Assembly (NCBI GenBank): GCA_017304845.1
Contig: JAFKLL010000012.1
Span: 62,001 to 126,000, forward strand
Origin: Solirubrobacterales bacterium
GTDB lineage: Bacteria > Actinomycetota > Thermoleophilia > Solirubrobacterales > 70-9
Reading direction: 5' to 3'
DNA length: 64,000 nucleotides
Made by a program: the position numbers and the translations under genes. The notes under the pieces were generated by a model, which searched no databases, had not been told where the DNA came from, and saw only the letters and a list, made by a program, of their open reading frames with translations. Shown one piece after another: positions 9,405 through 42,165 of the stretch. Numbering within the stretch: position 1 is the first letter of the stretch; each line of letters starts with the position of its first letter.

Positions 9405-9511
9405 TCCTGGCCCACATCGGGCCGCTGCCGGTGGAGGAGCTGCTGGCCCTGGCGCCGGCGGTCGCCGGGGTGGGGCTGGCGGCGCGGGCCAGGTTCTTCC
9501 GGCGCCGCTAG
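9401..9511 (+). CDS. 36-residue micropeptide, last gene of the ArsR operon
   Basis: A short open frame starts at ATG 9401, overlapping the DUF899 stop as ATGA exactly like the two junctions before it. It encodes MILAHIGPLPVEELLALAPA followed by a valine/glycine/alanine stretch and ends ARARFFRRR. The middle is hydrophobic enough for one membrane segment with a basic cytoplasmic tail. I recall similar LAHxGGLPVEELL peptides in actinobacteria but cannot name a family. The three-step overlap pattern is the main evidence that it is translated. Confidence 0.6.
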   Translation: MILAHIGPLPVEELLALAPAVAGVGLAARARFFRRR

Positions 9512-10617
9512 ATCCCGTCGGCCAGCTGCTCGGCGTACTCCGCCAGCCGGGGGATGCCCTCGTCGAGGCTGGCGAAGAACGGGTCGTCGGTGGTGCCGGC
9601 CAGATGGCGCTTGCGGCTGCCCTCGAGCAGGATCGCCAGCTTCCAGATCGCCAGGCAGCGGTACCAGGGAAGCTGCTCCAGCGAACGGCCCGACCGCTCC
9701 GAGTACCGCTCCAGCAGCTCCTCGATCGGCGGGAAGTTGCGGCTGCCGGTGGCCAGGGAGAGGCCGAGCAGCAGGGAGGCGGGGCCGTCGTGCCCGAGCC
9801 ACATCGCGGCCAGGTAGCCGACGTCCGCCATCGGGTCGCCGAGGGTCGCCATCTCCCAGTCGAGCACCCCGGCCACGCGGGCGGGCGGGCCGGGATCGAA
9901 GATCACGTTGTCGAGCTTGAAGTCGCCGTGGACGATCGCCGGCGTGCCCGACTCGGGGATGCTGGTGGCGAGCCGGCCGCCGACCTGGACGATCGCCGGG
10001 ATCTCGCGGGTCTTGTTGACCTGCCACTGCCTCGACCAGAGATCGACCTGGCGCTTCAGATAGCCCGACGGGCGGCCCAGCTTCGAGAGCGGCCCCGCCG
10101 AGACGTCGACGGCATGCAGGCTGACCAGGGCGTCGACCAGCGCCTCGGCGGCGGCCCGCGCCTGCTCGGGCGTGTCCATCTCCGGCGGCAGCTCCCGCCG
10201 CACGACCAGCCCGTCGAGGCGTTCCATCAGATAGAAGGGCGCGCCGATCACCGACTCGTCGTGGCAGGCCATGACCGCCCGGGGCACCGGGACGCCGGTC
10301 TCGTACAGGGCCGAGATCAGCCGGTGCTCGCGCAGCACGTCATGGGCCTTCGGCGGGAAGGGCGGTCGCGGCGGCCGGCGCAGCACCCACCGTTCGCCGC
10401 CGCGGCTGACGAAGAAGGTCAGGTTCGAGTGGCCGGCCCGGACCCGTTCGATCTCGACCGGCCCGGCGCCCGGCAGGACCCGGCTGAGGCTCTCGCGGAT
10501 CAGCAGGGGCGGGATGTCCAGCCTGTCGGCCTGCTCCCTGGTCTCGACGATGTCGACGAGGTCTGTGGCGGTGGACTCCTGGGACACAGGGCCAGACTGA
10601 CCATCGAGAGCGGGCAA
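9508..10617 (-). CDS. Phosphotransferase (APH/lvaA-like) family protein
   Basis: The 369-residue protein has the kinase core of the aminoglycoside-phosphotransferase superfamily: an N-lobe with GHSNLTFFV and WVLRRPP, the catalytic loop VHGDFKLDN, and the metal-binding aspartate in LDWEMATLGDP. The LRRPP and DWEMATLGDP forms are typical of the ACAD11/LvaA group that phosphorylates hydroxyacyl-CoA, not antibiotics. The TTG start at 10617 is chosen because GGAGG lies eight bases before it. It is divergent from the dikinase-like gene at 10756 and is a paralogue of the gene at 20225. The substrate is not known. Confidence 0.83.
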   Translation of the reverse strand: MPALDGQSGPVSQESTATDLVDIVETREQADRLDIPPLLIRESLSRVLPGAGPVEIERVRAGHSNLTFFVSRGGERWVLRRPPRPPFPPKAHDVLREHRLISALYETGVPVPRAVMACHDESVIGAPFYLMERLDGLVVRRELPPEMDTPEQARAAAEALVDALVSLHAVDVSAGPLSKLGRPSGYLKRQVDLWSRQWQVNKTREIPAIVQVGGRLATSIPESGTPAIVHGDFKLDNVIFDPGPPARVAGVLDWEMATLGDPMADVGYLAAMWLGHDGPASLLLGLSLATGSRNFPPIEELLERYSERSGRSLEQLPWYRCLAIWKLAILLEGSRKRHLAGTTDDPFFASLDEGIPRLAEYAEQLADGI

Positions 10618-10755: not shown

Positions 10756-12630
10756 GTGACCACGACCAAGTTTGTCTACGAGTTTGGGTCAGGGACGGAG
10801 AGCCCCCGCATCCTGGGCGGCAAGGGAGCAAGCCTTGCCCGAATGACCAACCTTGGGCTGCCGATCCCGCCCGGCTTCGTGATCGGCACCGGCGCCTACC
10901 AGGCCTGGGCCGAGGCGGACGCCGACGCCGGCGAGATCCCGGCCGGCCTGCTGGACGAGATCGCCGAAGGCATCGACGGTCTGGAACGGGCGATCGGCCG
11001 CCGGCTCGGCGAGGTCGAGGATCCGCTGCTCGTCTCGGTCAGGTCGGGCGCCCCGGTCTCGATGCCGGGGATGATGGACACCCTGCTCAACGTCGGGCTG
11101 AACGACGAGACCATCGCGGCGCTGGCCGAGCGCACCGCCCCCGAGTTCGCCTGGGACATATACGTGAGGCTGCTCGCCACCTACGCCGAGGTGGTCCGCG
11201 GCATCAAGGTGAAGAAGCTCGGCGACGCGATCGACCCCGCGGCCCCCGCCCCGGAGCTGGCCGAGGCCTGGAAGCGGGTCATCGCCGAGCACGGCGAGCC
11301 GTTCCCGCAGTCGCCCCGCCGGCAGATCGAGGACGGCGTGATCGCGGTCTGGAAATCCTGGGACTCGCCCCGGGCGAAGCGGTACCGGCGCTTCGCCGGG
11401 ATCTCCGACTCGCTCGGGACCGGCGTGACCGTCCAGGCGATGGTCTTCGGCAACCGCGACGAGCGATCCGGCACCGGGGTCGTCTTCACCCGCGACCCCG
11501 GCACCGGCACCCCCGGCGCCTACGGGGACTTCCTGCTCCAAGCGCAGGGCGAAGACGTGGTCGCCGGCTCGCATGACCCCGAGCCGATCCAGGCGGCCGG
11601 CACCAGGCTCCCCGAGGCATTCGCCAAGCTCGAGGAGGCGCTGCCGGTGCTGGAGGCCAGCTACCGGGACATGTGCGACATCGAGTTCACGATCGAGACC
11701 GACAAGCTCTGGATCCTCCAGGCCCGGGTCGGGCAGCGGAGCGGCGCCGCCGCCGTGAGGATCGCGGTCGACCTGGTCGACCAGGGTCTGATCGACATCG
11801 AGACCGCGCTCGAACGGGTGCCGCTCTCGGCCCTCGAGGATCTCCAGCGGCCGGTCTTCGCCGCCGACCAGGAGTTCGACCTGCTCGGCTCCGGGGCGGC
11901 CGCCTCGCCCGGCGCGGCGATCGGCAAGGCGGTCTTCACCTCGCAGTTCGCCGAGGAGATGGCCGAGCAGGGCGAGGACGTGATCCTGGTCCGGCCCGAG
12001 ACCTCGCCGGCCGACATCGGCGGCATGATCGCCTCGAAGGGGATCGTCACCGCGCTCGGCGGGCGGGCCAGCCACGCGGCCGTGGTCGCCCGGGGGATCG
12101 GCCGCCCCGCGATCTGCGGCGTCAACGGGCTGGTCGTCGACGAGGAGGCCGGCACCGCCACCACCGCCGAGGGCCGGGTGATCCGCGAAGGCGACCTGCT
12201 CTCGGTCGACGGCCACGTCGGCCGGGTCATGGCCGGGGCGGTCGCGATGGCGCCCTCGCAGCCCGACCCGCGGCTGGCCCAGCTGCTCGCCTGGTGCGAG
12301 GAGCGTCGGCGGATCCCGATCCTGACCGAGGCCCCGGCCGGCCATGACGTGGTCGCCGACATGGGGGACACCGCCCGGGCCGGCAGCAAGGTCCTGGTCG
12401 ACCTGCCCTGGGAGGGCTCCGACTCGGCCAAGCTGCTGGAGCGGGTCGTCTCCGAGCTGAACGTCGACGCCGACCGCGAGCTGGTCCTGGCCCTGCCCGA
12501 ATCGCTCTGCGGAGTCGATCTGCGGCCCCCGGCCTCGGCCTGGTCGGCGATCGTCACGGCGGGGGACAACGAGTGGGCGGCCAGCCTGCTCAGCGCACGA
12601 ATCGAGTTGACCGAGGAGGGGCAGTCATGA
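10756..12630 (+). CDS. Pyruvate phosphate dikinase-like protein lacking the PEP/pyruvate barrel
   Basis: The 624-residue protein starts like pyruvate phosphate dikinase (GGKGASLARM and LPIPPGFVI near residues 20-45). It has an ATP-grasp nucleotide-binding region (VSVRSGAPVSMPGMMDT near 95-110, TGVVFTRDPGTG near 240) and a phosphohistidine swivel domain with His440 in GGRASHAAVVARGIG. Full PPDK is about 870 residues and ends in a TIM barrel that binds PEP/pyruvate. Here that barrel is missing, replaced by about 115 residues I do not recognise. It could phosphorylate its own histidine but needs another acceptor partner. The stop overlaps the start of the family X gene (ATGA), suggesting that partner. 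The GTG start follows GAGG. Confidence 0.85.
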   Translation: MTTTKFVYEFGSGTESPRILGGKGASLARMTNLGLPIPPGFVIGTGAYQAWAEADADAGEIPAGLLDEIAEGIDGLERAIGRRLGEVEDPLLVSVRSGAPVSMPGMMDTLLNVGLNDETIAALAERTAPEFAWDIYVRLLATYAEVVRGIKVKKLGDAIDPAAPAPELAEAWKRVIAEHGEPFPQSPRRQIEDGVIAVWKSWDSPRAKRYRRFAGISDSLGTGVTVQAMVFGNRDERSGTGVVFTRDPGTGTPGAYGDFLLQAQGEDVVAGSHDPEPIQAAGTRLPEAFAKLEEALPVLEASYRDMCDIEFTIETDKLWILQARVGQRSGAAAVRIAVDLVDQGLIDIETALERVPLSALEDLQRPVFAADQEFDLLGSGAAASPGAAIGKAVFTSQFAEEMAEQGEDVILVRPETSPADIGGMIASKGIVTALGGRASHAAVVARGIGRPAICGVNGLVVDEEAGTATTAEGRVIREGDLLSVDGHVGRVMAGAVAMAPSQPDPRLAQLLAWCEERRRIPILTEAPAGHDVVADMGDTARAGSKVLVDLPWEGSDSAKLLERVVSELNVDADRELVLALPESLCGVDLRPPASAWSAIVTAGDNEWAASLLSARIELTEEGQS

Positions 12631-14273
12631 GCTGGCGCATCACCGAAGAGCAGTTGCTGGACCTCAACTCGTTCCTGCAGCGCAGCGACGACGTGCTGGT
12701 CCACAACTGCCTGACCCGGACCGCCCAGGAATCGAAGCTCTTCCCGGTCCTGCCCTACCTGATGATGAGCATGATCGAGGGCTACTGGCGCTACCCGGAC
12801 CAGTTGCGCCGCTCGCTGGAGGTGATCTCCCCCGAGGACGTCGGCCACCGGGCCCGCAACGTCTCGACCCTGTTCTCCCGGCTCACCGCCTGGGGCATGG
12901 TCAACTACTACCTGAACGGCCGTTCGAACCTGATCCGCCTCGGCCTGATCGGACCGGCCGACAACCTCGAGGATCTCTGGCTGGTCTGCGACTGGTACAC
13001 CCGGTTCGCGAAGGCCTACAACCGGACCAGCGGGCACGTCAACGCGCTCGACGCCGGGGACATCTCCCCGACCCTCGAGGAACGCACCCTCCAGGTCTTC
13101 GAGGCGGACGCCTTCGCCTGCGACGCGGGGTTGAGCGCCGCCGCGGCCCGCTTCAACGCGATCGCCACCCAGTACAACTTCCTGGTCCACTGCGAGAGCC
13201 GCTCCGGCCTCCACTCGTCCGGCCCGTACCGGCTCGACGGCCGGCGCCTCATGCATGTGCGGGACTTCTTCAACCTGAGCGAGAGCACCCTGCCGTGGAT
13301 GGACGAGATCTCGGCCGAGATCCCTTTCAACAACCTCTCGCTGGTCGAGATCACCGACGGCGTCTCGATCGAGGTGACCGACTGGGCCACCGCCTACACG
13401 CAGCCCGAGTCGCATCAGGACCGGGTCATCGGGGTCGGCCTCTACACCTCCGACTTCCTGAGCGACCGCTACGTCCCGGTCGGGATGGGCTCCCGCCGGG
13501 AGCTGACCGACACGCTGAACGAGCTGACCGACCTGATGACCGAGGCGACCCGGGCGCTCTACCGGCGCTTCAGCGGGTACAGCATGGACCAGATGATCGA
13601 GGCCGGGATCCTGACCTACTACCAGGCCCCGGTCGACGTGCTGCGGATGGCCGGCCTGTACGAGCAGTCCGAGTGGGACACGATCGACCAGCGCACCCGC
13701 CGGCTCTGGACGCTCAACAACGAGGAGTACTCGCTGGACTCCTACATCGACCACTTCAACCTGGCGGCCGGCAAGCTCGGAGCGCAGAGCGAGTACTACC
13801 TGCATCCGATCTCCTACGGGGTGTGGCGTCGCGGCGGAGGCAGGGACGACCTGCCCCGGGCCGGTCGCACCCGCGAGTTCGTCCCGGCCGACGTGCTGGT
13901 CGACCACGACTACTCGCTGCGGGTCAACCCGGACGGGGTCGCCTCGGTCCAGGGCGATCGGAAGCTGCCGGAGAAGACCGCCGGGTTCGTCACCAGCCAG
14001 GGTCGGCTGACCCAGGACGAGATGAACCGGGCCGCCGCCGAGTGGTCGTCGCCGCTGCTTCGGCAGCCCTGGCGGAGCCTCGACGACGCCGCCGTCAAGT
14101 GGTCCTGGCAGGAGCCCGAGACAGCCGATCTGTACCGCTACACGCAGGAAGGATCGAGGCTGTTGGAGGGTCGTGGGGCGGGACTTCTCCGAAAGGACAT
14201 CGCGGAGATCCGCGAAGCGGCCGGCGAGCCCGCCTGGGCGAATGTTTCGTCCGCTGCGCCCGTCGCTGAATAG
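12627..14273 (+). CDS. Uncharacterised 'family X' protein, paralogue 1 (dikinase partner?)
   Basis: I do not recognise this 548-residue protein. It is a clear full-length paralogue of the 553-residue protein at 42772-44433, with many long identical stretches: HNCLTRTAQESKLFP (26-40), HCESR plus SGPYRL (188-203), VGLYTSDFL, DRYVPVGM, FNxA-type spacing, NEEYSLD, LTQDEMN and RYTQE. There is no signal peptide, membrane segment or obvious nucleotide-binding loop. It overlaps the dikinase-like gene by four bases, and the paralogue sits three bases from a gene for a free phosphohistidine domain. It may therefore be the acceptor-binding or catalytic subunit of a split dikinase; this is inference. The start ATG 12627 follows GAGGAGGGG. 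Confidence 0.75.
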   Translation: MSWRITEEQLLDLNSFLQRSDDVLVHNCLTRTAQESKLFPVLPYLMMSMIEGYWRYPDQLRRSLEVISPEDVGHRARNVSTLFSRLTAWGMVNYYLNGRSNLIRLGLIGPADNLEDLWLVCDWYTRFAKAYNRTSGHVNALDAGDISPTLEERTLQVFEADAFACDAGLSAAAARFNAIATQYNFLVHCESRSGLHSSGPYRLDGRRLMHVRDFFNLSESTLPWMDEISAEIPFNNLSLVEITDGVSIEVTDWATAYTQPESHQDRVIGVGLYTSDFLSDRYVPVGMGSRRELTDTLNELTDLMTEATRALYRRFSGYSMDQMIEAGILTYYQAPVDVLRMAGLYEQSEWDTIDQRTRRLWTLNNEEYSLDSYIDHFNLAAGKLGAQSEYYLHPISYGVWRRGGGRDDLPRAGRTREFVPADVLVDHDYSLRVNPDGVASVQGDRKLPEKTAGFVTSQGRLTQDEMNRAAAEWSSPLLRQPWRSLDDAAVKWSWQEPETADLYRYTQEGSRLLEGRGAGLLRKDIAEIREAAGEPAWANVSSAAPVAE

Positions 14274-14429: not shown

Positions 14430-15569
14430 ATGTCACGTTCACGAGCTTTACTGGCTGTGTTTGCAGCTTTGATGTTGTCCGCATTCGTGGTTGCCGGATG
14501 CGGGGGATCTGACGATTCCAGTTCAGGCGACAGCGGTTCCGGTTCCGGCAGCGGCAGCACCGAGAACGCACAGAAGATGGTCGACAAGCTGATGGACCCG
14601 GCCCAGGCCGAGTTCCCCAAGCCGACCGAGGCCTTCGATCCCGGCAAGGGCAAGGTCGCGGTCATCTCCTGCGGCAACGCGGGCATCAACTGCAAGGACG
14701 GCTCCGAGGACGCCACCGACGCCGCCAAGGCGATGGGCTGGACCTCCTCGCCGGTCTTCGACGGTGAGTTCAACCCGGCGAAGCAGTCCGGCTACGTCCG
14801 CCAGGCGATCCAGGAGAAGTACGACGCGATCGTGCTCGTCTCGATCGACGTGAACTCGATCAAGGCGGCCGTCCAGGCGGCGGCCGACGCGAAGATCCCG
14901 GTCACCTGCGTGATGTGCTCGAACCCCGGTCTCGAGGACATCGTCACCGACGTGACCACCGGCGGCACCGCCGACGGCCAGGCGATCGGCTACTGGACGG
15001 CGGCCGACTCGGGCGGCTCCGGCAAGGTGATCGCCTTCGACGACAAGTCGTTCCCGATCGTCGCCAAGCGCGTCGCCGCGGCGAAGCAGGTGCTGGCCGA
15101 CAACTGCCCCGACTGCGAGGTCGAGGAGAAGGAGATCGCCACCACCGAGCTGACCGAGCCCGGTCCCCCGACCTGGACCGCGACGCTGACCGCGAACCCT
15201 CCGGGCTCGTTCCAGTACGCCTGGGCCGCCTATGACCCGTTCGCGATCCCGATGGCGAAGACGGCGGAGCAGCAGGGCCGCGACGACATCAAGATCACCG
15301 GCTACGACGCCTCCCCGGACTACGTCCAGCTGATCAAGCAGGGCGGCGACGCCGCCGCGACCACCGCGGCTCCGTTCGAGTACGCGGCCTGGGGCGCCGT
15401 GGACGAGGCCGCCCGGGCGGCGGCCGGGGTCGACCAGTGGGACGGCACCAAGCTGCCGGTCATGTTGGTCACCAAGGACAACGCCGACGATCCAGCCCTC
15501 GAAGCCGGGTTCTTCAACCCGCCCTTCGATTTCAAGGCCGACTTCCAGAAGCTCTGGGGTCAGTCCTGA
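14430..15569 (+). CDS. ABC transporter sugar-type substrate-binding lipoprotein
   Basis: The 379-residue protein has a lipoprotein signal ending in VVAGCGG (lipid cysteine about residue 24), a Ser/Gly-rich linker, and a periplasmic-binding-protein fold of the ribose/galactose type (KVAVISCGNAGIN, YDAIVLVSIDVNSIKAAVQAA, KVIAFDD, ITGYDASPDYVQLI). It captures the solute outside the cell for the ATPase and permease that follow. The ligand cannot be read directly. The importer follows the dikinase-like and family X genes after 156 bases, so the imported compound may be their substrate. ATG 14430 is chosen over the upstream ATG at 14403, which would put extra charged residues before the signal. Confidence 0.88.
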   Translation: MSRSRALLAVFAALMLSAFVVAGCGGSDDSSSGDSGSGSGSGSTENAQKMVDKLMDPAQAEFPKPTEAFDPGKGKVAVISCGNAGINCKDGSEDATDAAKAMGWTSSPVFDGEFNPAKQSGYVRQAIQEKYDAIVLVSIDVNSIKAAVQAAADAKIPVTCVMCSNPGLEDIVTDVTTGGTADGQAIGYWTAADSGGSGKVIAFDDKSFPIVAKRVAAAKQVLADNCPDCEVEEKEIATTELTEPGPPTWTATLTANPPGSFQYAWAAYDPFAIPMAKTAEQQGRDDIKITGYDASPDYVQLIKQGGDAAATTAAPFEYAAWGAVDEAARAAAGVDQWDGTKLPVMLVTKDNADDPALEAGFFNPPFDFKADFQKLWGQS

Positions 15570-15633: not shown

Positions 15634-17076
15634 ATGAGCAGCACACCGAGACTGACCGTCACCGGGTTGAAGAAGTCCTTCGGCTCGAACAGCGTCCTCC
15701 ACGGCATCGACCTGGCCTTCGAGCCGGGGCAGTTCATCGGGCTGATGGGCCCGAACGGGGCCGGCAAGTCCACCCTGATCAAGATTCTCGCCGGGCTGTA
15801 CTCGGCCGACGAGGGGACGATCAAGCTGGACGACGAGACGGTCCGCAATCTCGGTTCCCGCAGGGAGTGCGGGTTCATCCACCAGGATCTCGGCCTGATC
15901 GAGGACATGTCGATCTGCGAGAACCTGCGGCTCGGGCAGCAGCCGATGAAGCTGGTCGGCCCGATCCTGAACTTGAAGCGCGAGCGCGAGGCCGCCGCCG
16001 AGGCGATCGCCCGGGTCGGCTTGGACCGGGATGTCGACACCCCGGTCAGCGCGCTCTCGCCGGGGGAGAAGACCCTGGTCGCGGTCGCCCGGACCCTGGA
16101 TCGGGGCGCCCGGATCCTGTTCGTCGACGAGGCGACCTCGACCCTGCCGGCCGCCGATTCGCGCCGTCTCACGGACGCGCTGCGACGCACGGTCGACGAC
16201 GGCGCGACCGTGATCATGGTCAGCCACAAGCTTTCCGAGATCCTCGACGACACCGACCGCGTGGTGGTGATCCTCGACGGCGAGATCTCGACCGACGAGC
16301 CGACCGCCTCACTGGACCGCGAGGGCCTGGTCGAGCGGCTGGTCGCGAAGGAGTCGGAGATGGCGGTCGAGGGCGAGGCCGACGCCTGCGAGATCGGCGA
16401 GGAGCTGATCGCCCTGGAGGCGGCCTGCGGCGGCCGGGCGGGGCCGGTCGATCTGGTCCTCAGGGGCGGCGAGATCACCGGCCTGACCGGGCTGCCCGGC
16501 TCCGGCCTGCATGACATCGGCTTTCTGGTCCACGGTTCGATGCGGCCCGTGAGTGGCCGGGTCCGCGCGTCGCGCAAGATCAGGCGGGCGCTGGTCCCGC
16601 CGCATCGGGAGACCCAGGGCGGGATCCCGGTCAGCTCGATCCGCGAGAACCTGACGCTTTCCTCGCTGCCCCGCTGGCGTGGCTTCGGCCGGCTCCTCGC
16701 CCTGGGGCAGGAGGGCCGGGACGCTCAGGGGATGGCGGATGAGCTCAACGTGGTCCCCGGCGATGCCGAGGGTCCGTACGGAGTGCTTTCCGGCGGCAAC
16801 AAGCAGAAGGTGATCTTCGGCCGGGTGCTCCTGAAGGAGCCTCAGGTCTATGTGCTTTGCGAGCCGACCCGTGGGGTCGACATCGCGACCCGGATGGAGA
16901 TCTACCGGCTGATCCGCAAGCTGCGCTCGAAGGACGTGGCGGTGCTGGTGATCAGCTCCGATTCGGAGGACCTGTTCTCGGTCTGCGACCGGATCGGGGT
17001 GGTTGACGACGGGACGGTGGAGGAGCTGGTCCCGGCGGAAGAGATGAACACACAACAGTTGGAGGCATTGGTCTGA
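15634..17076 (+). CDS. Sugar ABC transporter ATP-binding protein, two ABC domains (RbsA/XylG-like)
   Basis: The 480-residue protein has two fused ABC domains. The first has an intact Walker A (GPNGAGKST) and a changed signature LSPGEKTLVA. The second has a degenerate Walker A (GLTGLPGSGLHD) but a good signature LSGGNKQKVIFGRVL followed by EPTRGVD. This asymmetry is normal for RbsA/XylG ATPases. The length is near the usual 490-510. The ATG at 15634 follows AGGAGGAG, and the stop overlaps the permease start (TGATG). It energises import of the solute bound by the upstream lipoprotein. Confidence 0.9.
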   Translation: MSSTPRLTVTGLKKSFGSNSVLHGIDLAFEPGQFIGLMGPNGAGKSTLIKILAGLYSADEGTIKLDDETVRNLGSRRECGFIHQDLGLIEDMSICENLRLGQQPMKLVGPILNLKREREAAAEAIARVGLDRDVDTPVSALSPGEKTLVAVARTLDRGARILFVDEATSTLPAADSRRLTDALRRTVDDGATVIMVSHKLSEILDDTDRVVVILDGEISTDEPTASLDREGLVERLVAKESEMAVEGEADACEIGEELIALEAACGGRAGPVDLVLRGGEITGLTGLPGSGLHDIGFLVHGSMRPVSGRVRASRKIRRALVPPHRETQGGIPVSSIRENLTLSSLPRWRGFGRLLALGQEGRDAQGMADELNVVPGDAEGPYGVLSGGNKQKVIFGRVLLKEPQVYVLCEPTRGVDIATRMEIYRLIRKLRSKDVAVLVISSDSEDLFSVCDRIGVVDDGTVEELVPAEEMNTQQLEALV

Positions 17077-18275
17077 TGAGCAGCGTGACGGCAGGGAAAG
17101 TCGCGGCCTCCGGGCCGTCGGCATTGAAGCGGTTCGCCACCTCCCCGACGATGCAGGGCTCGCTCACCACGATCGCCTTCCTGCTGCTCTTCGTCGGCTA
17201 CTGGATCTGGCTGGGGGACACCTTCGTCAACGTCGACGCGCGCCTGCTCGACGTCCATCAGAACGCGCCGATCCTGATCCTCGGCCTGGCGGTGATGGTG
17301 ACCTTGATCGCCGGCCAGTTCGACCTCTCGGTCGGCGGCATGTGCACCCTGACCACCTTCCTCTCGATCGGGTTGGTGGTGCAGAAGGACTGGGCCTTCT
17401 GGATGGTGCTGGTGGCCTGCGTCCTGGCCGGGCTGATCGGCGGCCTGATCAACGGGCTGCTGGTGGTGAAGCTGGGGGTCAACACGTTCATCGCGACGCT
17501 CGGCACGGGCGGCGTGTTCCTGGGGATTTCGAGCGTCCTCTTCGGCGGCACCCAGCTGGCGCCGACCGATACGAGCCCGCAGCTCCCCTCCTGGTTCTCG
17601 GGCGACGGCTCGCTCGGCTCGTTCGGCGAGAAGTTCCCCTCGGTGATCGTCTGGATCGGCCTGGCGGCCTGCGCCTACGGGCTGTTCCGCTGGATTCAGG
17701 CGAGAAAGCCCGAGGGTCGGACGGACACCTCGTGGACCGTGATCTCGGCCGCGATCGTGGTGGTGCTGGCGGCGATCCTCTTCGCCCTGAACCTGCCGGC
17801 CTGGGTGGACGGGGTGTCCCTGACGATCGGCGTGCTGCTGATCATCGGGCTGGTCCTGTGGGTGGTGCTCCGCTACACGACGTACGGGCGGTACCTGTAC
17901 GCGACCGGGGCGAACCCCGAGGCGGCGAGGCTGGCCGGCGTGAAGACGGACCGGGAGACGATCCTGGCGTTCGTGATCGGCGGTCTCCTGGCCGCGCTCG
18001 CCGGGGTGATCCTGGCCGCGAACCAGGGCGCGGCCTCACCGGACATCGGTACCGGCTTCCTCCTGCCCGCGTTCGCCGCCGCCTTCCTGGGCACGGTGAT
18101 CATGTCCACGGGCCGCTTCCACGTCTGGGGAACCCTGATCGGAGGCACCTTCCTGGTCTGGGTCACACAGGGCTTGATCGTCGGCGGAGTTCCGTTCACC
18201 TGGACGGACGTCATCAACGGCGTCGTTTTGGTTGCCGCCGTTGCCGTATCGACGATCTTCCGCCGCCGCGCCTGA
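17076..18275 (+). CDS. Sugar ABC transporter permease (XylH/RbsC-like)
   Basis: The 399-residue integral membrane protein has about ten hydrophobic helices and the permease hallmarks DLSVGGMCTLT, GLINGLLVVKLGVNTFIATLGT and YATGANPEAARLAGV. It is longer than RbsC and similar in length to XylH, because of an extra segment around residues 160-245 (including GDGSLGSFGEKFPS and a charged loop before another helix). It is translationally coupled to the ATPase and completes the importer. Confidence 0.9.
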   Translation: MSSVTAGKVAASGPSALKRFATSPTMQGSLTTIAFLLLFVGYWIWLGDTFVNVDARLLDVHQNAPILILGLAVMVTLIAGQFDLSVGGMCTLTTFLSIGLVVQKDWAFWMVLVACVLAGLIGGLINGLLVVKLGVNTFIATLGTGGVFLGISSVLFGGTQLAPTDTSPQLPSWFSGDGSLGSFGEKFPSVIVWIGLAACAYGLFRWIQARKPEGRTDTSWTVISAAIVVVLAAILFALNLPAWVDGVSLTIGVLLIIGLVLWVVLRYTTYGRYLYATGANPEAARLAGVKTDRETILAFVIGGLLAALAGVILAANQGAASPDIGTGFLLPAFAAAFLGTVIMSTGRFHVWGTLIGGTFLVWVTQGLIVGGVPFTWTDVINGVVLVAAVAVSTIFRRRA

Positions 18276-20224: not shown

Positions 20225-21238
20225 TCAATCGAGACCGGCGAAACCGGCCGCCTCTTCCAGCAGGGCGGGCACGTCATGCTCCAGCCGGACCGCGTACTCG
20301 GTGTCGAGCAGACCCGCCACGTACTGGGCGTAGGCCCCCTCGACGATCGCGGCGAGCTTCCAGAACGCCACCGCCATGTACCACTCGATGTGCTCGGTGG
20401 AACGGCCCGTCAGCTCGGTGTACCGGGCGGCCAGCTCGCGGCGGCTCGGGGTGAACGGCAGGCGAGAGACACCCTGCACCCTCGGCATCGCCATCTGCTT
20501 CGGCCGGTCAGGCCCCCAGAACGCCAGGCAGATGCCGAGATCGAAAAGGGGATCGCCGATCGTCGACATCTCCCAGTCGATGATCGCGCTCACCTTCACC
20601 TCGTCACCGAACGTGATCAGCGAGTTGTCGAGGTGGAAGTCGCCGTGCATGATCGCCGGGGGCTGCTCCGGCGGCAGGTTCGTCGACAGCCACTCCGCCA
20701 GCTGATGGAACCGGGGCAGGTTGCGCACCTGGATCCGGTCGTACTGCTTCGCCCAGCGCGGCACCTGCCGCTCCAGGAAACCCTCCGGGCGCCCGAAGTC
20801 CGAGAGCCCAGCCGCCTGCCAGTCGACCTGGTGGAGCTTCGCCAGAGCATCGATCAGGGCCGGGCCGATCCCGGCCGCTGCGACGTCCGGATCGACTCCC
20901 TCCGGCAGATGGTCGGTCAGCGCGAACCCGTCGACCGCCTCCATCACCAGGAACTGGCCGCCGTTCTCGTCGGTGCCCAGGCCGATCGCCGCCGGCGAAG
21001 GCACGTCCTGGTCGGTCAGCGCCTCGAGGATCCGGAACTCGCGCTCCATGCTGTGGGCGCTCGGGTCGATCGCATCGGCCGGGGGACGACGCAGGACGAA
21101 GCTGCCCTCGGCGTCGGTGAGCAGCAGGGTCTCGTTCGAGTTGCCGCCGCTCAGCGGGGTCAGCTCGAACGGGCCACGGCCGGGCAGGGCGTCGGCGAGC
21201 CACTCGCCCAGCCGGTCGGAAATGGTCAGCGTGCTCAT
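20225..21238 (-). CDS. Phosphotransferase family protein (LvaA/ACAD11 kinase-like)
   Basis: The 337-residue APH-fold kinase shows GGNSNETLLL, FVLRRPP, the catalytic loop MHGDFHLDNSL and the metal aspartate in IIDWEMSTIGDP. The LRRPP and DWEMSTIGDP forms match the kinase domain of human ACAD11 and bacterial LvaA, which phosphorylate 4-hydroxyacyl-CoA. Its divergent neighbour at 21362 is an ACAD11-type dehydrogenase, which strengthens that reading. It probably works in the cytosol on a hydroxyacyl-CoA; the chain length is unknown. Confidence 0.87.
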   Translation of the reverse strand: MSTLTISDRLGEWLADALPGRGPFELTPLSGGNSNETLLLTDAEGSFVLRRPPADAIDPSAHSMEREFRILEALTDQDVPSPAAIGLGTDENGGQFLVMEAVDGFALTDHLPEGVDPDVAAAGIGPALIDALAKLHQVDWQAAGLSDFGRPEGFLERQVPRWAKQYDRIQVRNLPRFHQLAEWLSTNLPPEQPPAIMHGDFHLDNSLITFGDEVKVSAIIDWEMSTIGDPLFDLGICLAFWGPDRPKQMAMPRVQGVSRLPFTPSRRELAARYTELTGRSTEHIEWYMAVAFWKLAAIVEGAYAQYVAGLLDTEYAVRLEHDVPALLEEAAGFAGLD

Positions 21239-21361
21239 GGGGAGATCATCGCGCGCCGCCGGCCCCGACCCGGCCGCTTCCCGGCCCTGCTTTGGAGAAC
21301 TCCCTAAGCAGAGCCGTTCAGGCCGGGGGCTGGTTGGTGGGCATCACATAGGTTGAATCGC

Positions 21362-22651
21362 ATGAGCTGGGACTTTGAGACCGAACCGGAATTCCAAGAG
21401 AAACTCGACTGGATGCGGGAGTTCGTGCGGGAGGAGATCTACCCGCTCGAGACGCTCGACATCGACTACCTCCAGTTCCGCGAGCTGATCAAGCCGCTGC
21501 AGCAGGAGGTCAAGGACCGGGAGCTCTGGGGCGTCCACCTCAGCCCCGAGCAGGGCGGCGCCGGCTACGGCCAGGTCAAGCTCGGGCTCATGCACGAGAT
21601 CCTCGGCGCCTCCGAGCTCGCCCCGCCGGTCTTCGGGGTCCACGCGCCCGACACCGGCAACTCCGAACTGATCGCTGTAGCCGGGGATGAGGAACAGGTC
21701 GAGAAATGGGGCAAGCCGGTGCTGAACGGCGAGCTGTGGAGCGCCTACTCGATGACCGAAGAAGGCCGCGGCTCCGACCCGACCATGCTCCAGACCTCGG
21801 CCGTCCTCGACGGTGACGAGTGGGTCGTCAACGGGGTCAAGTTCTGTGTCGGCAACGCCAACCGCTCCGACTTCCACATCGTGCTCTGCCGGACCGAGGA
21901 CGACGAGGGAACCGCGAAGCACAGGCGGCACTCGATGATCATCGTCCCGACCGATACCGAAGGCGTGATCAACCGGCAGATCGGGCTGATGCACGACCCC
22001 AACTCCGAGGGCCTGGTCCACACTCACTGCGAGGTCACCTACGACAACGTGCGGGTCCCGGCCGAGAACCTGCTCGGTGGCCGCGGCGAGGCCTTCGTGC
22101 TCGCCCAGAAGCGGCTCGGCCCCGGCCGCATCCATCACTGCATGCGCTGGATGGGCGTCTCCCGCCGCGCGCTTGACGCGCTCTGCGAACGGGCGGTGTC
22201 GAAGTCCGTCCACGGCGGTCTGCTGGCCGACAAGGAGATGGTCCAGGATTGGATCGCCACCTCGGCCGCGGAGATCGAAGCGGCCCGGCTGCTCACCCTC
22301 CAGGCCGCCTGGAAGATCGACCAGGTCGGGGCCTCCGGCGCCCGTCAGGAGATCGCGATGATCAAGTACCACGGGGCGAAGGTCATGCATGACGTGCTCG
22401 ACCGCGCGATTCAGATCCATGGCGCGCTCGGCTACTCGACCGACATGCCGCTCGAGGAGGCCTACCGCTGGTCCCGGGCCGCCCGGCTCTACGACGGGCC
22501 GGACGAGGTCCACAAGGTCTCGGTCGCCCGCCGCATCCTCAAGAACTACGAGCCACGCGACAAGCCGAGCGACCACATCCCGACCCGCCGGCAGGCGGCG
22601 ATGGAGAAGTGGGGCCCGGTCATCGAGCGGCTCGAGACCTCCAGCGTCTGA
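21362..22651 (+). CDS. Acyl-CoA dehydrogenase, ACAD10/11 (LvaC) type
   Basis: The 429-residue flavoprotein has the usual ACAD order: helical N-domain, beta-domain with YSMTEEGRGSDP, and C-domain. The stretch RLGPGRIHHCMRWMG, then IAMIKYHGAKV and YDGPDEVH, closely follow the ACAD10/ACAD11 C-domain as I know it. That group takes the phosphorylated 4-hydroxyacyl-CoA, eliminates phosphate and yields an enoyl-CoA. MSWDFETEPEF at ATG 21362 fits the family start better than TTG at 21353. The stop overlaps the HAD gene (TGATG). The neighbouring kinase at 20225 supports a joint pathway. Confidence 0.9.
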   Translation: MSWDFETEPEFQEKLDWMREFVREEIYPLETLDIDYLQFRELIKPLQQEVKDRELWGVHLSPEQGGAGYGQVKLGLMHEILGASELAPPVFGVHAPDTGNSELIAVAGDEEQVEKWGKPVLNGELWSAYSMTEEGRGSDPTMLQTSAVLDGDEWVVNGVKFCVGNANRSDFHIVLCRTEDDEGTAKHRRHSMIIVPTDTEGVINRQIGLMHDPNSEGLVHTHCEVTYDNVRVPAENLLGGRGEAFVLAQKRLGPGRIHHCMRWMGVSRRALDALCERAVSKSVHGGLLADKEMVQDWIATSAAEIEAARLLTLQAAWKIDQVGASGARQEIAMIKYHGAKVMHDVLDRAIQIHGALGYSTDMPLEEAYRWSRAARLYDGPDEVHKVSVARRILKNYEPRDKPSDHIPTRRQAAMEKWGPVIERLETSSV

Positions 22652-36447: not shown

Positions 36448-36945
36448 GTGGCGACCACGATCGCGATCGTCTCCGACACCCACATGCCGAAGGGCCGGCG
36501 CGAGCTGCCGGAGAAGTGCGTCCGGATCTGCCGCGAGTCGGATCTGATCGTCCACGGCGGCGACTTCATGGAAGCCTCGATCCTCGAATTGTTCAAGAGC
36601 TTCGGCCCGCCGGTCGTAGCGGTTCACGGCAACGTCGATTCGAAGGACCTGCGTAACTGGCTACCGGAGACGACGACGATCGAGGTCGAATCGGTCCGGA
36701 TCGGCCTGATCCACGACTCAGGGTCGAAGCGGGGAAGGATCGAACGCATGCGAGCCCTCTTCCCCGATCACGACGCGGTCATCTTCGGCCACTCGCACCT
36801 GCCTCTCCACGAGGAAGAGGAGGGACTTCAGATCTTCAACCCGGGAAGCCCGACCGAGCGCAGGCGTTCGCCGTTCAAGTCGATGGGCGTGGCGAGGGTC
36901 GACGGAGGGAAACTCGACTTCGACCTGATCGACCTCGGCGTCTAA
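36448..36945 (+). CDS. YfcE/MJ0936-type metallophosphoesterase
   Basis: The 165-residue protein is a small calcineurin-like phosphoesterase: DTHMPKGRREL (Asp, His), HGGDF (Asp), VHGNVD (Asn) and GHSHLPL (two His). The IHDS step has an aspartate where many relatives have glycine. It hydrolyses phosphodiesters in vitro in relatives; the natural substrate is unknown. GTG 36448 is the start. The end overlaps the convergent LLM gene by four bases. Confidence 0.88.
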   Translation: MATTIAIVSDTHMPKGRRELPEKCVRICRESDLIVHGGDFMEASILELFKSFGPPVVAVHGNVDSKDLRNWLPETTTIEVESVRIGLIHDSGSKRGRIERMRALFPDHDAVIFGHSHLPLHEEEEGLQIFNPGSPTERRRSPFKSMGVARVDGGKLDFDLIDLGV

Positions 36946-37916
36946 CGAGGCGCGAGCGCCCGGATGGTGCGCTCGTAAGTCTCGCCGTCGCCCGGATCGA
37001 TGATCGGAACGAGCAGAGGAGTGACCCCGTCCGCGTTCATCTGGGCCATCTTCTCCCGGCACTCGTCCTCGGTTCCGACGAGGCCCATGTCATCAGCGAA
37101 GCCGTCCGGAAGCGCATCAGCCATCGCCTGGAGGGAGTCGTGCTTGAGGACATGGTCGACGACCTCCCCGAAGCCGAGTTCGCGCAGCGAGTTCTCGTAA
37201 ACGGGAACTCGCATGTAGGAGGCGGTCTCGCGTCGGAAACGGTGGATCTGCGCGTCGAGGTCATCGCCGACCGCGACCCGGATCGGAAGAACCAGCTCAT
37301 GGTCCGGTTTGTCAGCGGGTCGTTCCCGCTCAGCGAACCCGGACAAAGTTGAGCGAGGGGCGAAGTTGAGGATCAACCCGTCGGCATGTTCCCGAGTGAA
37401 CTCCCGCATCTTCGGACCGAGAGCCCCGATCACCCGCTGGGGAGGGGTGGAGGTCGGTTTCTCCAGTCGGAATCCGTGAGAAGAGAGAACGGACCCGTCG
37501 TAGTCGGTGGGTTCACCCGTCATCGCCTGATCGACGATCGAGAACAGATCCCGCACGGTAGGAAGCGCCTTCGGCAACTCCTGCCCATGCCAACCCTTGA
37601 TGATCGGCTCGGTCGAAAGCCCATACCCCACGATCGCCCGATCCCCAGCGATCGACCCAAGAGTCGAGTGCCCCATCGCATGAAGAGCCGGGGTCCGAGT
37701 AGTAAAAGGAACGATCGCGGTCCCAATCGTGATCCGCTCAGTCGCCGCCGCGATCGCACAGGCACCCGCGATCGCGTCATAGCTGGCCAGCTCACTGACC
37801 CAGACGGAGTCGTAGCCGAGGTTTTCTGACAGCTTCCCGAAGCGGAGGGCGTCGGCTCCGTCGAATCCGCGGAGAGGAAGACAGATCCCCGCTCCGTTCC
37901 ATTCTCGGTTCGGCAT
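36942..37916 (-). CDS. LLM class flavin-dependent oxidoreductase (F420-type)
   Basis: The 324-residue protein is a luciferase-like TIM-barrel enzyme: FGKLSENLGYDSVWVSE, TIGTAIVPFTTRTPALHAMG, and VGYGLSTEPIIKGWHG. Its C-terminal part has a GTEDECREKM segment, typical of F420-dependent members. Base use in the N-terminal half drifts towards A/T and many GATCGC words, at the edge of the less GC-rich patch that follows. The substrate is unknown. Confidence 0.85.
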   Translation of the reverse strand: MPNREWNGAGICLPLRGFDGADALRFGKLSENLGYDSVWVSELASYDAIAGACAIAAATERITIGTAIVPFTTRTPALHAMGHSTLGSIAGDRAIVGYGLSTEPIIKGWHGQELPKALPTVRDLFSIVDQAMTGEPTDYDGSVLSSHGFRLEKPTSTPPQRVIGALGPKMREFTREHADGLILNFAPRSTLSGFAERERPADKPDHELVLPIRVAVGDDLDAQIHRFRRETASYMRVPVYENSLRELGFGEVVDHVLKHDSLQAMADALPDGFADDMGLVGTEDECREKMAQMNADGVTPLLVPIIDPGDGETYERTIRALAPR

Positions 37917-37989: not shown

Positions 37990-38793
37990 TCAGGCCGCGC
38001 TAGTTGAGGCGTGGGCGTAGTCGATTCTCCCTTGCATCTCCGACACTCGTTCTCCCCAGTTTCTAGATCCAGGCGGTCCCATGATCGAGCAAGAGATCGT
38101 GAGTCTTTCATCGCCGAGTAACTCCGTCAGCAGTTCTAGCCTCGATGGCGCCTTTACCCCGTTGATGATGTAGCGCAGCCGTTCGGCTGTGAGTTGATCA
38201 AACTTGCGCAGGAGCTCAAAGCGTTGGTTCCAAGCGGAACGACTATGAAACGAGGTCCAGTCCAACGAAACGACTTCAAGGTCGGCTTCTGAGTTGGCCC
38301 AAATCGCCCACCGCTCGACATCTCGTTCAACTTCCCAATCTACTCTCGGAATCACAGGAGCTCCAAACTGCGCCAGCTGCGATGAGACGATGAGCGAGCG
38401 CTTCGATTGGTAGAGGAACTCAGGACGTGGTCGAGGGTGCCACTTCGAGAATGAGGGACCCGTGATTGCGTCGTACTCGGATGTGCCCAGCTGAGGAAGC
38501 AAATTGGGCCCTTCGTACCAGACGCGTTCCAGCACTTCGTCACGACCGAACAAGAGAAGGACTATCTTGGTGCCTACCCCAAGGTTGAGTTCCCGCCGGA
38601 CCTGCTCGGCTGTAAGGGGCTTCCGTCGCTTTCCGATCGCTTGATCGGCAGTTATCGAAACGACATCAGGCTTACTCCTCTCAGTAGCAATGCTCGAGAG
38701 CATCCGCACTTGTGGGATCAGGGTCGGGAACTCGTAGTTTGCGGTGAGAGGAACTGACTCGGTCGAGTAATCGTCTCCATGAACAGAATCCAT
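37990..38793 (-). CDS. DUF4417-like protein, 5' end disrupted
   Basis: From ATG 38793 the product is 267 residues with LLLFGRDEVLERVWYEG, FLYQSKRSLIVSSQL and APVIPRVDW, which resemble DUF4417 proteins (often phage or mobile-element encoded). The same frame is open upstream to 39030 and encodes a cysteine-rich segment (LCGSCAFFPCG, then FACRKEW) that looks like part of the domain, but no ATG, GTG or TTG exists there. So either a frameshift has separated it from the upstream 120-residue frame or the true start is non-standard. Base composition is lower in GC than the neighbours, suggesting transfer. Family assignment is moderate. Confidence 0.6.
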   Translation of the reverse strand: MDSVHGDDYSTESVPLTANYEFPTLIPQVRMLSSIATERSKPDVVSITADQAIGKRRKPLTAEQVRRELNLGVGTKIVLLLFGRDEVLERVWYEGPNLLPQLGTSEYDAITGPSFSKWHPRPRPEFLYQSKRSLIVSSQLAQFGAPVIPRVDWEVERDVERWAIWANSEADLEVVSLDWTSFHSRSAWNQRFELLRKFDQLTAERLRYIINGVKAPSRLELLTELLGDERLTISCSIMGPPGSRNWGERVSEMQGRIDYAHASTSAA

Positions 38794-38972
38794 GTAGTCG
38801 GTGGTCAGACTAAACCGGGGGTCCAGCGTCTGATCTCCTCCAAGCGACCGAGTTCCCCATTCCTTACGGCAGGCGAACTCGGTTCGTTCCGCCCCGCAAG
38901 GGAAAAAGGCGCAACTCCCACAGAGCGGTCCAACCTCCCTTTCGAAGAGCGTGAGAGTCTCCCCGGTCGTAG

Positions 38973-39335
38973 TTATGCTCTCACTCCTCGGAGCCGGAGC
39001 TTTCCGGTTGAGTTCGAGTCGTCGAAGTCTTCAACGACTCCTCGCATCTCGAAGCCAATTTCGATACAAGCCAAGGCTGCCGCGCCATTTGCTTGGGCGA
39101 CACGACCAATGATTTCGTTGCGAATGCTTCTGACAAGAAGCTCAACTCCCGGGACGAGGGTTACAGCCAAACCTTTGAACACGAACTTCTCAGCGTCACC
39201 GGAGAAGGGGATCAGCATCTCTTGCTCACAGAAGCCGAGATCCTCGTCCTGCTCTGAGTGCGCTTCGCTCGAGCCTTTGAGGTCATATGGACCTCGCTTT
39301 CGTACGTCTAGGTTTTCTTTCGGTCCGCCGCCCAT
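38973..39335 (-). CDS. Hypothetical 120-residue protein upstream of the DUF4417-like gene
   Basis: ATG 39335 follows CGGAG at ten bases and opens a 120-residue frame with a mixed strand/helix pattern (FCEQEMLIPFSG, FVFKGLAVTLVPGVELLVRSI, ACIEIGFEMRGVV). It ends at 38973, inside the upstream open part of the DUF4417-like frame (overlap 38973-39030). A -1 shift in that overlap would fuse both into one protein. I do not recognise it. It could be a small adapter gene or the N-terminal half of a broken gene. Confidence 0.45.
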   Translation of the reverse strand: MGGGPKENLDVRKRGPYDLKGSSEAHSEQDEDLGFCEQEMLIPFSGDAEKFVFKGLAVTLVPGVELLVRSIRNEIIGRVAQANGAAALACIEIGFEMRGVVEDFDDSNSTGKLRLRGVRA

Positions 39336-39456
39336 AGATTCAGAACTCCGTCTGTTGTGGTGGAGGTGACCCGCCTTCTGGCTGGGTATCCCTAGTTCAA
39401 AACGTTGCAATGCATTTCCAACGTGTAGAAATCTTCCTCGCTCGTTCGGACGGAAA

Positions 39457-39948
39457 ATGCGGATTTCCGTTCAGATGGCGTCCGGAAGCGCAGATAGCCT
39501 CATTCCAATGGACCGGGGAAGCAGCATCGATGTGCTGGAAGAAGAACGCAGAATGATTGAACAACGCATCGATCAGGACGCGAAGCGACTAGCGGCGATC
39601 GAGGTGGTTGTTCGTAGCCTTCGAGAGCAGCTTGAACGGGACAGGAGAACGCTGCGGGAAATCGACTCCGTCCTCGGGCGCCTCCCTCAACTCGACCTTC
39701 GTGACCTCGATATCCGTCTTCGGGGACAGCACTTGGAGGAAGTCGCGCTAAAAGTTCTGGCCGAGAAGTTGGGTGATGAAGTAGAGGTTCACTACCGAGA
39801 CTGGTTCGCCTTGCTTGAAGGCCAGGGTCTCCTTGTTGCCGGGAAGGAGCCCCTCAACACCTTTTTGGCCCAGATCAATCGGTCTCCTCATGTGGAGCGA
39901 ATCGGCAAACGAACTGGGCGCTACCGGGTCACCGTCAAGGCAGCCTGA
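39457..39948 (+). CDS. Coiled-coil protein with HARE-HTH-like C-terminal domain
   Basis: The 163-residue protein has a strong heptad-type helix from about residues 24-72 (LEEERRMIEQRIDQDAKRLA onward). It then has a compact domain, LRGQHLEEVALKVLAEKLGD, WFALLEGQGLLVAGKEPLNT, and FLAQINRSPHVERIGKRTGRYRV. The last part resembles the HARE-HTH winged helix found in restriction and chromatin-linked proteins. The start could be ATG 39457 or ATG 39508. Codon use is less GC-biased than neighbouring genes. No partner restriction gene is present. Confidence 0.6.
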   Translation: MRISVQMASGSADSLIPMDRGSSIDVLEEERRMIEQRIDQDAKRLAAIEVVVRSLREQLERDRRTLREIDSVLGRLPQLDLRDLDIRLRGQHLEEVALKVLAEKLGDEVEVHYRDWFALLEGQGLLVAGKEPLNTFLAQINRSPHVERIGKRTGRYRVTVKAA

Positions 39949-40162
39949 GAATCTCTTACTGATGTAGCTCCGACAGGTTTGTCTCTCGAGCCGAAATAGC
40001 AAGGGCATCAAGGCTAGACGCTGGTCCCTTGTCGGGCGTGGAGTCGTCCACTTGACCGCCTTCCGGCGCTGTCGGCAAAATGCTGCTCCCCACGGAAAGA
40101 CGCTCCTGTCGCTCAGGTTGATCACTCCACACTCGTGACCTGCAAGCAGCCGGAGCAATCAG

Positions 40163-41224: not shown

Positions 41225-42165
41225 CAGACGTCCTTCCAAGCGTAGAACGCCTTCGGGTTGTCGACCACCATCTTGCGGGTCGCGCTCTCCGGCACACCCA
41301 CCTGATGCAGCCACGGGATGAACCGCCACAAGATGTAGCTGTAGCCCGGGCCGCCCCCGTAGGCGGTCATGTAGCTGCGCCGGGCGATGTCCCCGGAGAG
41401 CATGATCTGGTCCTCATGCCCCTCCTCGACGAGGCGCTTGATGAACTCGATCCGCTGCGCCTCCGGCTGGTAGTGCTCCTTCGAGATGCAGTCGAAACCG
41501 AGCCGGTAGCCGGCCTTGGCGACCGCCAGGTGATCGTCCCAGTCGAGTCGACGATCGAGGTGGCCGATCATCGTGTGCTCGGGGTCGGCCCCGGCATCGT
41601 CGAAGATCCGCACCTGCTCCAGCGGGATCGTGCCCGCCGTGGTGTGGGTCTGGATCGGGGCGCCGGTCCGCTTCTGCGCCTCGACCCCGGCCCGGATCAT
41701 CTTGTCCTCCTCGGGCAGAACCTCGTCCTTCGAGGAGCCGAGCTTGATCACGCCGGCGCGGACACCGTCCGAGTCGGGGATCGCGTCGGTCAGGTCGGTC
41801 AGCATCTCGTCGAGCAGCGACTCCGGGGACCGACCGGCGATGTCCTCGACCCCGCGCCAGTAGCCCTCCATGATGTGCCCGGTCGAACAGATGATGTTCA
41901 CCCCGGTGTCACGCTGGAGGCCGGCGAGCTTGTCGGCGCCGCGGCCGTACTCGGTGGTGGTGCAGTCGACCACCGCCTGGCCGCCGGCCCGCTTGAAGAT
42001 CTCGAGCTCCTCGGCCGACTTCGCCATGTCCTCCAGGATCAGGTCGTCGCCGCCCATCTTCTCCAGCAGGTGCTGGCCGGGCATCGTGGCGAGATGCTCA
42101 TGGCAGTAGGTGACGCCGAGCTGGTCCGGGTCGATCTCGCCGCCGACCGTGTGTACCTTGCCCAT
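41224..42165 (-). CDS. Phosphotriesterase-family metal hydrolase (PTE/lactonase-like)
   Basis: The 313-residue amidohydrolase has the binuclear-metal residues of the PTE family: YCHEHL (HxH), a likely carboxylated lysine in AGVIKLGSS, a histidine in PIQTHTTAG, the GHLDR histidine and the metal aspartate in LSGDIARRS. Family members hydrolyse phosphotriesters, lactones or similar esters. In this operon it follows a phosphohistidine-domain protein and family X, so cleavage of a phosphorylated or lactone intermediate is conceivable. This is inference. Confidence 0.87.
   Translation of the reverse strand: MGKVHTVGGEIDPDQLGVTYCHEHLATMPGQHLLEKMGGDDLILEDMAKSAEELEIFKRAGGQAVVDCTTTEYGRGADKLAGLQRDTGVNIICSTGHIMEGYWRGVEDIAGRSPESLLDEMLTDLTDAIPDSDGVRAGVIKLGSSKDEVLPEEDKMIRAGVEAQKRTGAPIQTHTTAGTIPLEQVRIFDDAGADPEHTMIGHLDRRLDWDDHLAVAKAGYRLGFDCISKEHYQPEAQRIEFIKRLVEEGHEDQIMLSGDIARRSYMTAYGGGPGYSYILWRFIPWLHQVGVPESATRKMVVDNPKAFYAWKDV

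Follow-up and report, generated by a model that had tools for sequence, protein, structure and literature searches.

In several described systems, the phosphorylation of a small molecule is divided among proteins. Hydroxyphenylethanone dikinase (HpeHI), CreHI and PpsAB are reported to split the ATP-grasp, swivel histidine and acceptor functions over separate proteins (PMC12167813, PMC9618137); HpeI is described as an ATP-grasp protein, and HpeH as joining the acceptor and swivel domains (PMC12167813). In the acetovanillone pathway, HpeHI is reported to feed the biotin-dependent carboxylase HpeCBA, alongside HpeD, HpeE and HpeF (PMC9618137). Rifampin phosphotransferase (RPH) is likewise described as having an ATP-grasp domain, a swivel histidine and an acceptor domain that pass phosphate to a small molecule (PMC4844700). 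VadK (Rv1127c), a tuberculosis virulence kinase, is described as an autophosphorylating histidine kinase whose mutated catalytic residue is His422 and which interacts with enzymes of the methylcitrate cycle (PMC13400623). Here we examine a 64,000-nucleotide stretch of a Solirubrobacterales genome (GCA_017304845.1, contig JAFKLL010000012.1, positions 62,001 to 126,000; hereafter the window), which carries a VadK-type dikinase (DIK), a stand-alone phosphohistidine protein (PHS), a putative helix-turn-helix protein (HTH) and two proteins of an unplaced family, X. Together these components probably form a previously undescribed system that moves phosphate from ATP through histidines to a small molecule destined for breakdown, in many soil and water bacteria; literature searches returned no paper naming such a system.

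Dikinase and family X genes in the window

A preliminary description of the window reported a protein related to pyruvate phosphate dikinase (PPDK) that lacks the C-terminal barrel, carries a phosphohistidine at His440, and overlaps by ATGA a 548-residue protein that could not be placed. The open reading frames (ORFs), the Pfam and NCBIfam matches and the alignment around His440 all agree with this account (Table 1). The Pfam content of DIK is PPDK_N (E 1.1e-41) and PEP-utilizers (E 7.5e-20), and the PEP-utilizers_C barrel is missing from its matches up to E 1. DIK passes the cut-off of NCBIfam PRK05878 (477 bits vs 456), to which a Rhodococcus plasmid homologue scores 768 bits, and falls short of the full-length PPDK model TIGR01828 (586 bits vs 843), covering positions 2–542 of its 865. 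Alignment with a solved PPDK pairs DIK residues 7–539 with PPDK residues 4–554 of 874. Most DIK homologues are 567–601 aa long, measured from model start to stop. His440 is invariant wherever it is covered, the other five of 60 aligned sequences being gaps; the ATP-site residues K23, R96, D308, E310 and R324 do not vary among the sequences that cover them (55 or 56 of 60, the remainder gaps), and Q322 is kept in 55 of 56 covered sequences.

The preliminary description overlooked a second X (X2) and a second phosphohistidine protein (PHS) about 30 kb away, at 42.2–45.2 kb. Only 3 bp separate the PHS stop from the X2 start, and the gene of a 201-aa protein follows; the label HTH for this protein comes from sequence reading, Pfam and NCBIfam having given it no family match. 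The window's own genome has one dikinase and two X genes, both X genes lying inside the window.

Conservation of the gene set

Two surveys place X with phosphohistidine proteins. A first contig scan with a single-protein query found nothing. Among 299 genomes surveyed from the class, eight carry X; among the loci fetched from these, PHS lies beside an X in all eight genomes, and a dikinase is found in seven, the eighth (G268) being represented only by short or truncated stretches. A wider search with the X profile against one genome per species gave 166 stretches with 133 relatives, and the counts below refer to the best 80, the other 53 being left out. Judged by record title, these 80 belong to Actinomycetota, to the alpha-, beta- and gammaproteobacteria and, in one case, to Bacillus, although the titles of some metagenome-assembled genomes (MAGs) are plainly wrong. 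Bifidobacterium breve or Klebsiella pneumoniae, for example, look like wrong titles for the MAG records of L039, L045, L055, L059 and L079, whose loci are Actinomycetota- or gammaproteobacteria-like.

PHS accompanies X at 73 of the 80 loci, followed by a ligase (66), HTH (61), DIK (56), carboxyltransferase (CT; 54), biotin carboxyl carrier protein (BCCP; 52), biotin carboxylase (BC; 46), thiolase (44), tyrosine-phosphatase (12), phosphotriesterase-family protein (PTE; 3) and alcohol dehydrogenase (ADH; 2). Where the stretch extends 3 kb or more ahead of X and 5.5 kb or more beyond it (48 loci), the counts are ligase 46, PHS 45, HTH 43, CT 42, DIK 40, BCCP 40, BC 37 and thiolase 32. The seven loci without PHS are L089, L090, L091, L097, L103, L105 and L112. 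PHS is nevertheless present in all seven genomes searched, namely those of six of these loci (not L090) and that of L073, where PHS lies 7 kb from X. For five of the six genomes, the stretch fetched around PHS has PHS, HTH and DIK mutually adjacent, and in L199–L201 they share a cluster with carboxylase genes; the sixth stretch (L203) ends 165 bp past PHS. L089, L105 and L112, the three long loci without PHS, have PHS-HTH-DIK farther along the same cluster. Of 396 genomes drawn at random from the phylum, 6 have X; the corresponding figure for HTH is 31 of 392, and these 31 include all six X genomes.

The strongest argument for PHS and X as one functional unit comes from fusions. PHS is fused to a shorter X in ten ORFs, in clusters that hold the split form too; X-HTH fusions occur twice (L066, L107), and two single chains of PHS-X-HTH were found in the class survey (L031, L032). 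The proposed tie between X and phosphohistidine proteins thus stands, on neighbourhood as well as on fusion, and X is not a protein found mostly without such a neighbour. The pairing of dikinase and X as the unit does not, since direct same-strand adjacency from DIK to X occurs at none of the 80 loci and the conserved set comprises dikinase, HTH, stand-alone PHS and X. HTH adjoins DIK in 55 adjacencies across the 80 loci, and the order HTH-DIK-PHS-X on one strand is seen in L023, L027 and L028. Several PHS-X pairs, and so more than one PHS, are present at 12 of the 80 loci; those stretches that include DIK have a single copy of it, which is what a donor shared by several acceptor modules would lead one to expect.

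The DIK-X1 adjacency in the window is nonetheless more than chance, because both genes are full-length and their families co-recur across phyla; chance adjacency of an orphan gene X is ruled out by the locus surveys. In G212 and G280 (L021, L022) the order ligase-PHS-X-X'-HTH-PTE-ADH reproduces the window cluster, except that a second X is present within it. Since X1 is closest to the second X of L021 (62% vs 57%) and X2 to the first (66% vs 58%), the DIK-X1 pair looks, from sequence comparison, like a rearranged copy.

Surroundings of the two clusters

A sugar-type ATP-binding cassette (ABC) importer lies directly downstream of DIK-X1, as the preliminary description had noted. The importer is real, and its link to the set is limited to the window's near clade: its permease has a homologue beside PHS-X in two Patulibacter MAGs (L036, L041), and the other 78 of the 80 loci yielded no importer, save for remote matches to the ATPase in L081 and L114, each at the outermost end of the locus. 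APH-like kinase genes at 9508–10617 (-) and 20225–21238 (-) and an acyl-CoA dehydrogenase-like gene at 21353–22651 (+) flank this region; by sequence reading and motifs alone they resemble 4-hydroxyacyl-CoA (levulinate-type) catabolism.

In the second cluster, PTE comes after HTH in L021, L022, L025, L035, L037 and L038 as in the window, and ADH comes after PTE in the same loci other than L037. A protein similar in length to the PucR-type regulator occupies the same position in L021 and L038, an equivalence judged by position. The window also has a thiolase at 51513–52688. A luciferase-like protein, F420-type by reading, lies near the cluster at 36942–37916 (-), and one is found at the far end of the cluster in relatives (L038 2466–3542, L021 1789–2856). 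GC content falls to 0.556 over positions 38001–40000, compared with about 0.69 elsewhere. This stretch surrounds a DUF4417-like ORF (below cut-off) and, at 39457–39948, a coiled ORF, and it has the look of a recent insertion bordering the PHS-X cluster.

Table 1. Features of the two clusters in the window
Feature	Position	Strand	Evidence and remarks
DIK, barrel-less PPDK/VadK-type dikinase (ATP-grasp and phosphohistidine domain)	10756-12630	+	ORF 624 aa, GTG start; Pfam, NCBIfam, residue alignment
Catalytic His440 codon of DIK, GGRASHAAVVARG	12073-12075	+	His in 55/55 covering sequences
X1, family X protein, 548 aa, ATG start	12627-14273	+	ORF; overlaps DIK by ATGA at 12627-12630
ABC importer substrate-binding protein (Peripla_BP_4)	14430-15569	+	Pfam
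ABC importer ATPase	15634-17076	+	Pfam, NCBIfam
ABC importer permease	17076-18275	+	Pfam, NCBIfam; homologue adjoins PHS-X in two Patulibacter MAGs
ADH, zinc-dependent alcohol dehydrogenase	40163-41224	-	Pfam ADH_N E 1.4e-26; ORF extends to 41329, start set at internal ATG
PTE, phosphotriesterase-family protein	41224-42165	-	Pfam PTE E 1.5e-63; clade-specific neighbour
HTH, 201-aa partner	42165-42770	-	Same family as gene beside VadK-type dikinases
X2, second family X protein, 553 aa	42772-44433	-	56% identical to X1
PHS, stand-alone phosphohistidine protein, 239 aa	44437-45156	-	Pfam PEP-utilizers E 3.5e-10, above cut-off, sole Pfam domain
PHS His182 codon (GTVRSHLAII)	44611-44613	-	His in 99/99 aligned PHS sequences
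AMP-forming acyl-CoA ligase, upstream of PHS	45280-46848	-	Pfam AMP-binding E 7.9e-76
PucR-type GAF/HTH_30 regulator at cluster head	46906-48819	-	Pfam

Family X

X matches no known enzyme family of unrelated chemistry. X1 has no match in Pfam or NCBIfam up to E 1; X2 has weak Pfam matches to FA_desaturase_2 (E 0.0056) and BAG (E 0.22), which lie below the cut-offs and are unsupported by X1. Among solved structures, phmmer against the PDB found nothing up to E 1, and the best profile match was a thioredoxin-related protein at E 1.9. The residues that are fully invariant across 93 X sequences include five arginines (R31, R99, R133, R192 and R212), a pattern that would suit the binding of phosphate or another anion.

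The known acceptor domains were considered as relatives. X as a diverged HpeH/CreH acceptor domain was rejected: the X profile gave no match at full sensitivity, and hhalign returned a probability of 0.3% over 29 columns. As a positive control, the X profile picks up even the remotest X proteins, with an E of 7.7e-42 at worst, although these are not independent of the family. Neither X1 nor X2 matches PRK08296, the HpeH-like family in NCBIfam in which we place CreH and HpeH ourselves, nor the NCBIfam RPH family. An Rv2047c-like epimerase-phosphohistidine protein was tried as a mycobacterial counterpart; the nine long ORFs of the six loci L185–L190 gave no X match (best E 2, negative score).

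The predicted structure of full-length X is confident (pLDDT 92.2, pTM 0.92). Foldseek gave a best E of 1.4 for it, with nothing at 0.001 or better, and VIA-align placed none of 265 chains at Z 2 or more. For a core model (residues 1–357), the best Foldseek E was 0.53 in the PDB and 0.10 in a viral library, and the best VIA-align match was a bilin reductase (Z 2.2, rmsd 5.5 over 115). START-like chains recur low in the fold lists at unusable scores, and RPH is not among the matches listed for either model. On the RIF-binding fold of phenolic dikinase acceptor domains, these searches offer no usable match for or against. Weak scores of predicted models do not establish a new fold.

The HTH partner and VadK

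Judged by sequence, HTH is likely a member of the Rv1126c family. In L160, L164 and L165 an HTH homologue has as its neighbour a barrel-less dikinase carrying the motif GGAASHAAVVSREL, which the VadK mutagenesis primer also implies. In L160 and L164 the homologue has 201 aa and its start overlaps the dikinase end by 4 bp; Rv1126c itself is presumably about 200 aa long. The VadK qPCR primer has no match in L160 or L164, and neither PHS nor X was detected beside the dikinase in L160, L164 or L165. VadK with its operonic partner Rv1126c resembles DIK with HTH in being a barrel-less PPDK with a phosphohistidine, in its NCBIfam family PRK05878 and, as far as the loci with that motif represent it, in a probable HTH-family neighbour, but its published role, regulation of the methylcitrate cycle, differs from the one proposed here (PMC13400623).

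Members of the HTH family are also found close to acyl-CoA ligases at loci whose fetched stretch contains neither a dikinase nor PHS nor X (L156, L157, L161, L162, L166). Others are beside or near partial dikinase or phosphohistidine proteins that match only in the swivel region or as an ATP-grasp fragment (L169, L174, L180, L181, L183), which suggests, at the level of sequence, other kinds of HTH-associated dikinase.

Proposed phosphate transfer and alternative explanations

From the observed domain content, catalytic residues, co-occurrence, operon order and fusions, we infer a multi-component small-molecule dikinase, a reading that we hold to be reasonably probable, in which phosphate would flow from ATP to the DIK histidine, to the PHS histidine and on to an acceptor held by X. 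As expected from PPDK and VadK chemistry, the ATP-grasp site of DIK would phosphorylate its own His440, from which phosphate would move to His182 of PHS; PHS would then dock on X, which would bind and activate the acceptor, and HTH would be a structural partner of DIK. By analogy with HpeHI, X and PHS together would correspond to HpeH, and DIK to HpeI. Unlike HpeI, which is ATP-grasp only, DIK has its own PEP-utilizers domain and His440, and phosphate probably passes two histidines for this reason. HpeH is one chain, whereas its counterpart here is usually split, and X has no detectable sequence relation to the HpeH-like family. RPH differs in being a single chain. The phosphoenolpyruvate (PEP):sugar phosphotransferase system (PTS) uses serial phosphohistidines and several acceptor-side modules. 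The loci with several PHS-X pairs, where at most one donor is seen, may be analogous, but the donor side here is an ATP-grasp domain using ATP rather than a PEP barrel, and neither DIK nor PHS matches a PTS family above the NCBIfam cut-off.

Several observations weigh against this model. DIK is not seen in 24 of the 80 loci. Truncation affects many of these 24, but 8 of them are among the 48 long loci; L089, L105 and L112 are explained by a DIK farther along, and L035, L038, L073, L096 and L100 are not. Of 27 HTH loci fetched in the phylum survey, 11 have a dikinase in the stretch and 16 have none, so HTH is not solely a DIK partner, and ten loci have VadK-type DIK-HTH pairs with neither X nor a full PHS nearby. 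Neither profile search nor hhalign gives X a sequence link to any acceptor domain, and the window, as searched, has no carboxylase genes. Two serial histidines are unusual, and the ATP-grasp site of DIK might phosphorylate PHS directly. VadK, moreover, is described as a regulator of proteins (PMC13400623).

A different explanation is a regulatory phosphorelay in which DIK, as a VadK-like histidine kinase, signals the energy state via PHS to X as a protein target or enzyme regulator, and no small molecule is phosphorylated. The reported autophosphorylation of VadK and its reported interaction with methylcitrate cycle enzymes (PMC13400623) fit such a relay, as do the DIK-HTH pairs without X. We consider it unlikely, since PHS-X modules are multiplied, fused, and embedded in carboxylase, ligase and thiolase operons for catabolism, in the manner of substrate-activating enzymes. 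X might instead be the catalyst of a different reaction, such as enolisation or carboxyl transfer, with PHS merely supplying phosphate as a covalent intermediate or switch. X does lie beside or inside carboxylase operons, and in L089, L105 and L112 it comes first before BCCP-BC-CT with PHS farther off; yet those operons already have a complete PYC/OADA-type CT and X has no family match, which makes a catalytic X improbable. The preliminary description favoured a split phosphotransferase in which X replaces the PPDK barrel. On such a two-part model, X alone would receive phosphate straight from His440, and PHS would be a separate or redundant protein. The ATGA overlap and the lack of a PHS gene adjoining X1 speak for this two-part arrangement, which is nonetheless very improbable given the lack of same-strand DIK-to-X adjacency at the 80 loci, the constancy of PHS as neighbour and fusion partner of X, and the PHS in the window itself. 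The broader idea of a split phosphotransferase thus survives in the tie of X to phosphohistidine proteins, with PHS rather than the dikinase as the constant partner.

Pathway context and implications

The multi-component dikinase reading is best considered with its operons, whose neighbours at most loci are biotin carboxylase, CoA ligase and thiolase rather than an importer. On plasmid pA of Rhodococcus pyridinivorans P23, the order is PEP-utilizing enzyme (PHS), hypothetical protein (X), AMP-binding protein, hypothetical protein (HTH) and pyruvate phosphate dikinase, then biotin/lipoyl protein, biotin carboxylase, carboxyltransferase, OB-fold protein, thiolase, tyrosine-protein phosphatase and SRPBCC protein; pRB98 of R. 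oxybenzonivorans has the same gene set. The carboxyltransferase is of the PYC_OADA type and the thiolase of the lipid-transfer/BbsB kind. Like HpeHI, which is described as feeding a biotin-dependent carboxylase (PMC9618137), the X operons may supply one: in most bacteria with the set, the phosphorylated product would be carboxylated by a biotin-dependent enzyme of the pyruvate-carboxylase type, then converted to a CoA ester and cleaved by thiolase, in the order of the Hpe pathway.

Because the acetovanillone pathway shares this logic, ketones or phenolic ketones are by analogy the likeliest candidate acceptors in the carboxylase-bearing clade. Near extra PHS-X pairs, Rhodococcus plasmid clusters have an HpaB-type flavin hydroxylase (L132 5908–7314) and a flavin reductase (L134 6349–6879), hinting at phenolic substrates. 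The acceptor in the window's clade is probably different, because there the set sits with PTE, ADH and at times a sugar-type importer; another alcohol or a polyol may be the candidate. A more speculative proposal, which we put forward tentatively, joins these elements into an ATP-driven, PTS-like two-histidine relay, in which one PPDK-derived donor (DIK with HTH) would charge several PHS-X modules that are interchangeable and differ in their acceptor. X would then be a new class of acceptor domain, the relay would replace acetone- and acetophenone-type carboxylases by phosphorylating ketones or enols ahead of biotin-dependent carboxylation, and mycobacterial VadK would be a surviving donor half.

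For operons of Actinomycetota, Proteobacteria and a Bacillus, the gene set provides a function-level hypothesis on entries annotated as PEP-utilizing enzyme or hypothetical protein. The predicted catabolic route runs through phosphorylation, carboxylation, CoA ligation and thiolysis, and its entry substrate could be found by induction. The set also gives comparative context for VadK: since its homologues adjoin a second phosphohistidine protein and X, the recipient of VadK's phosphate becomes a directly testable question.

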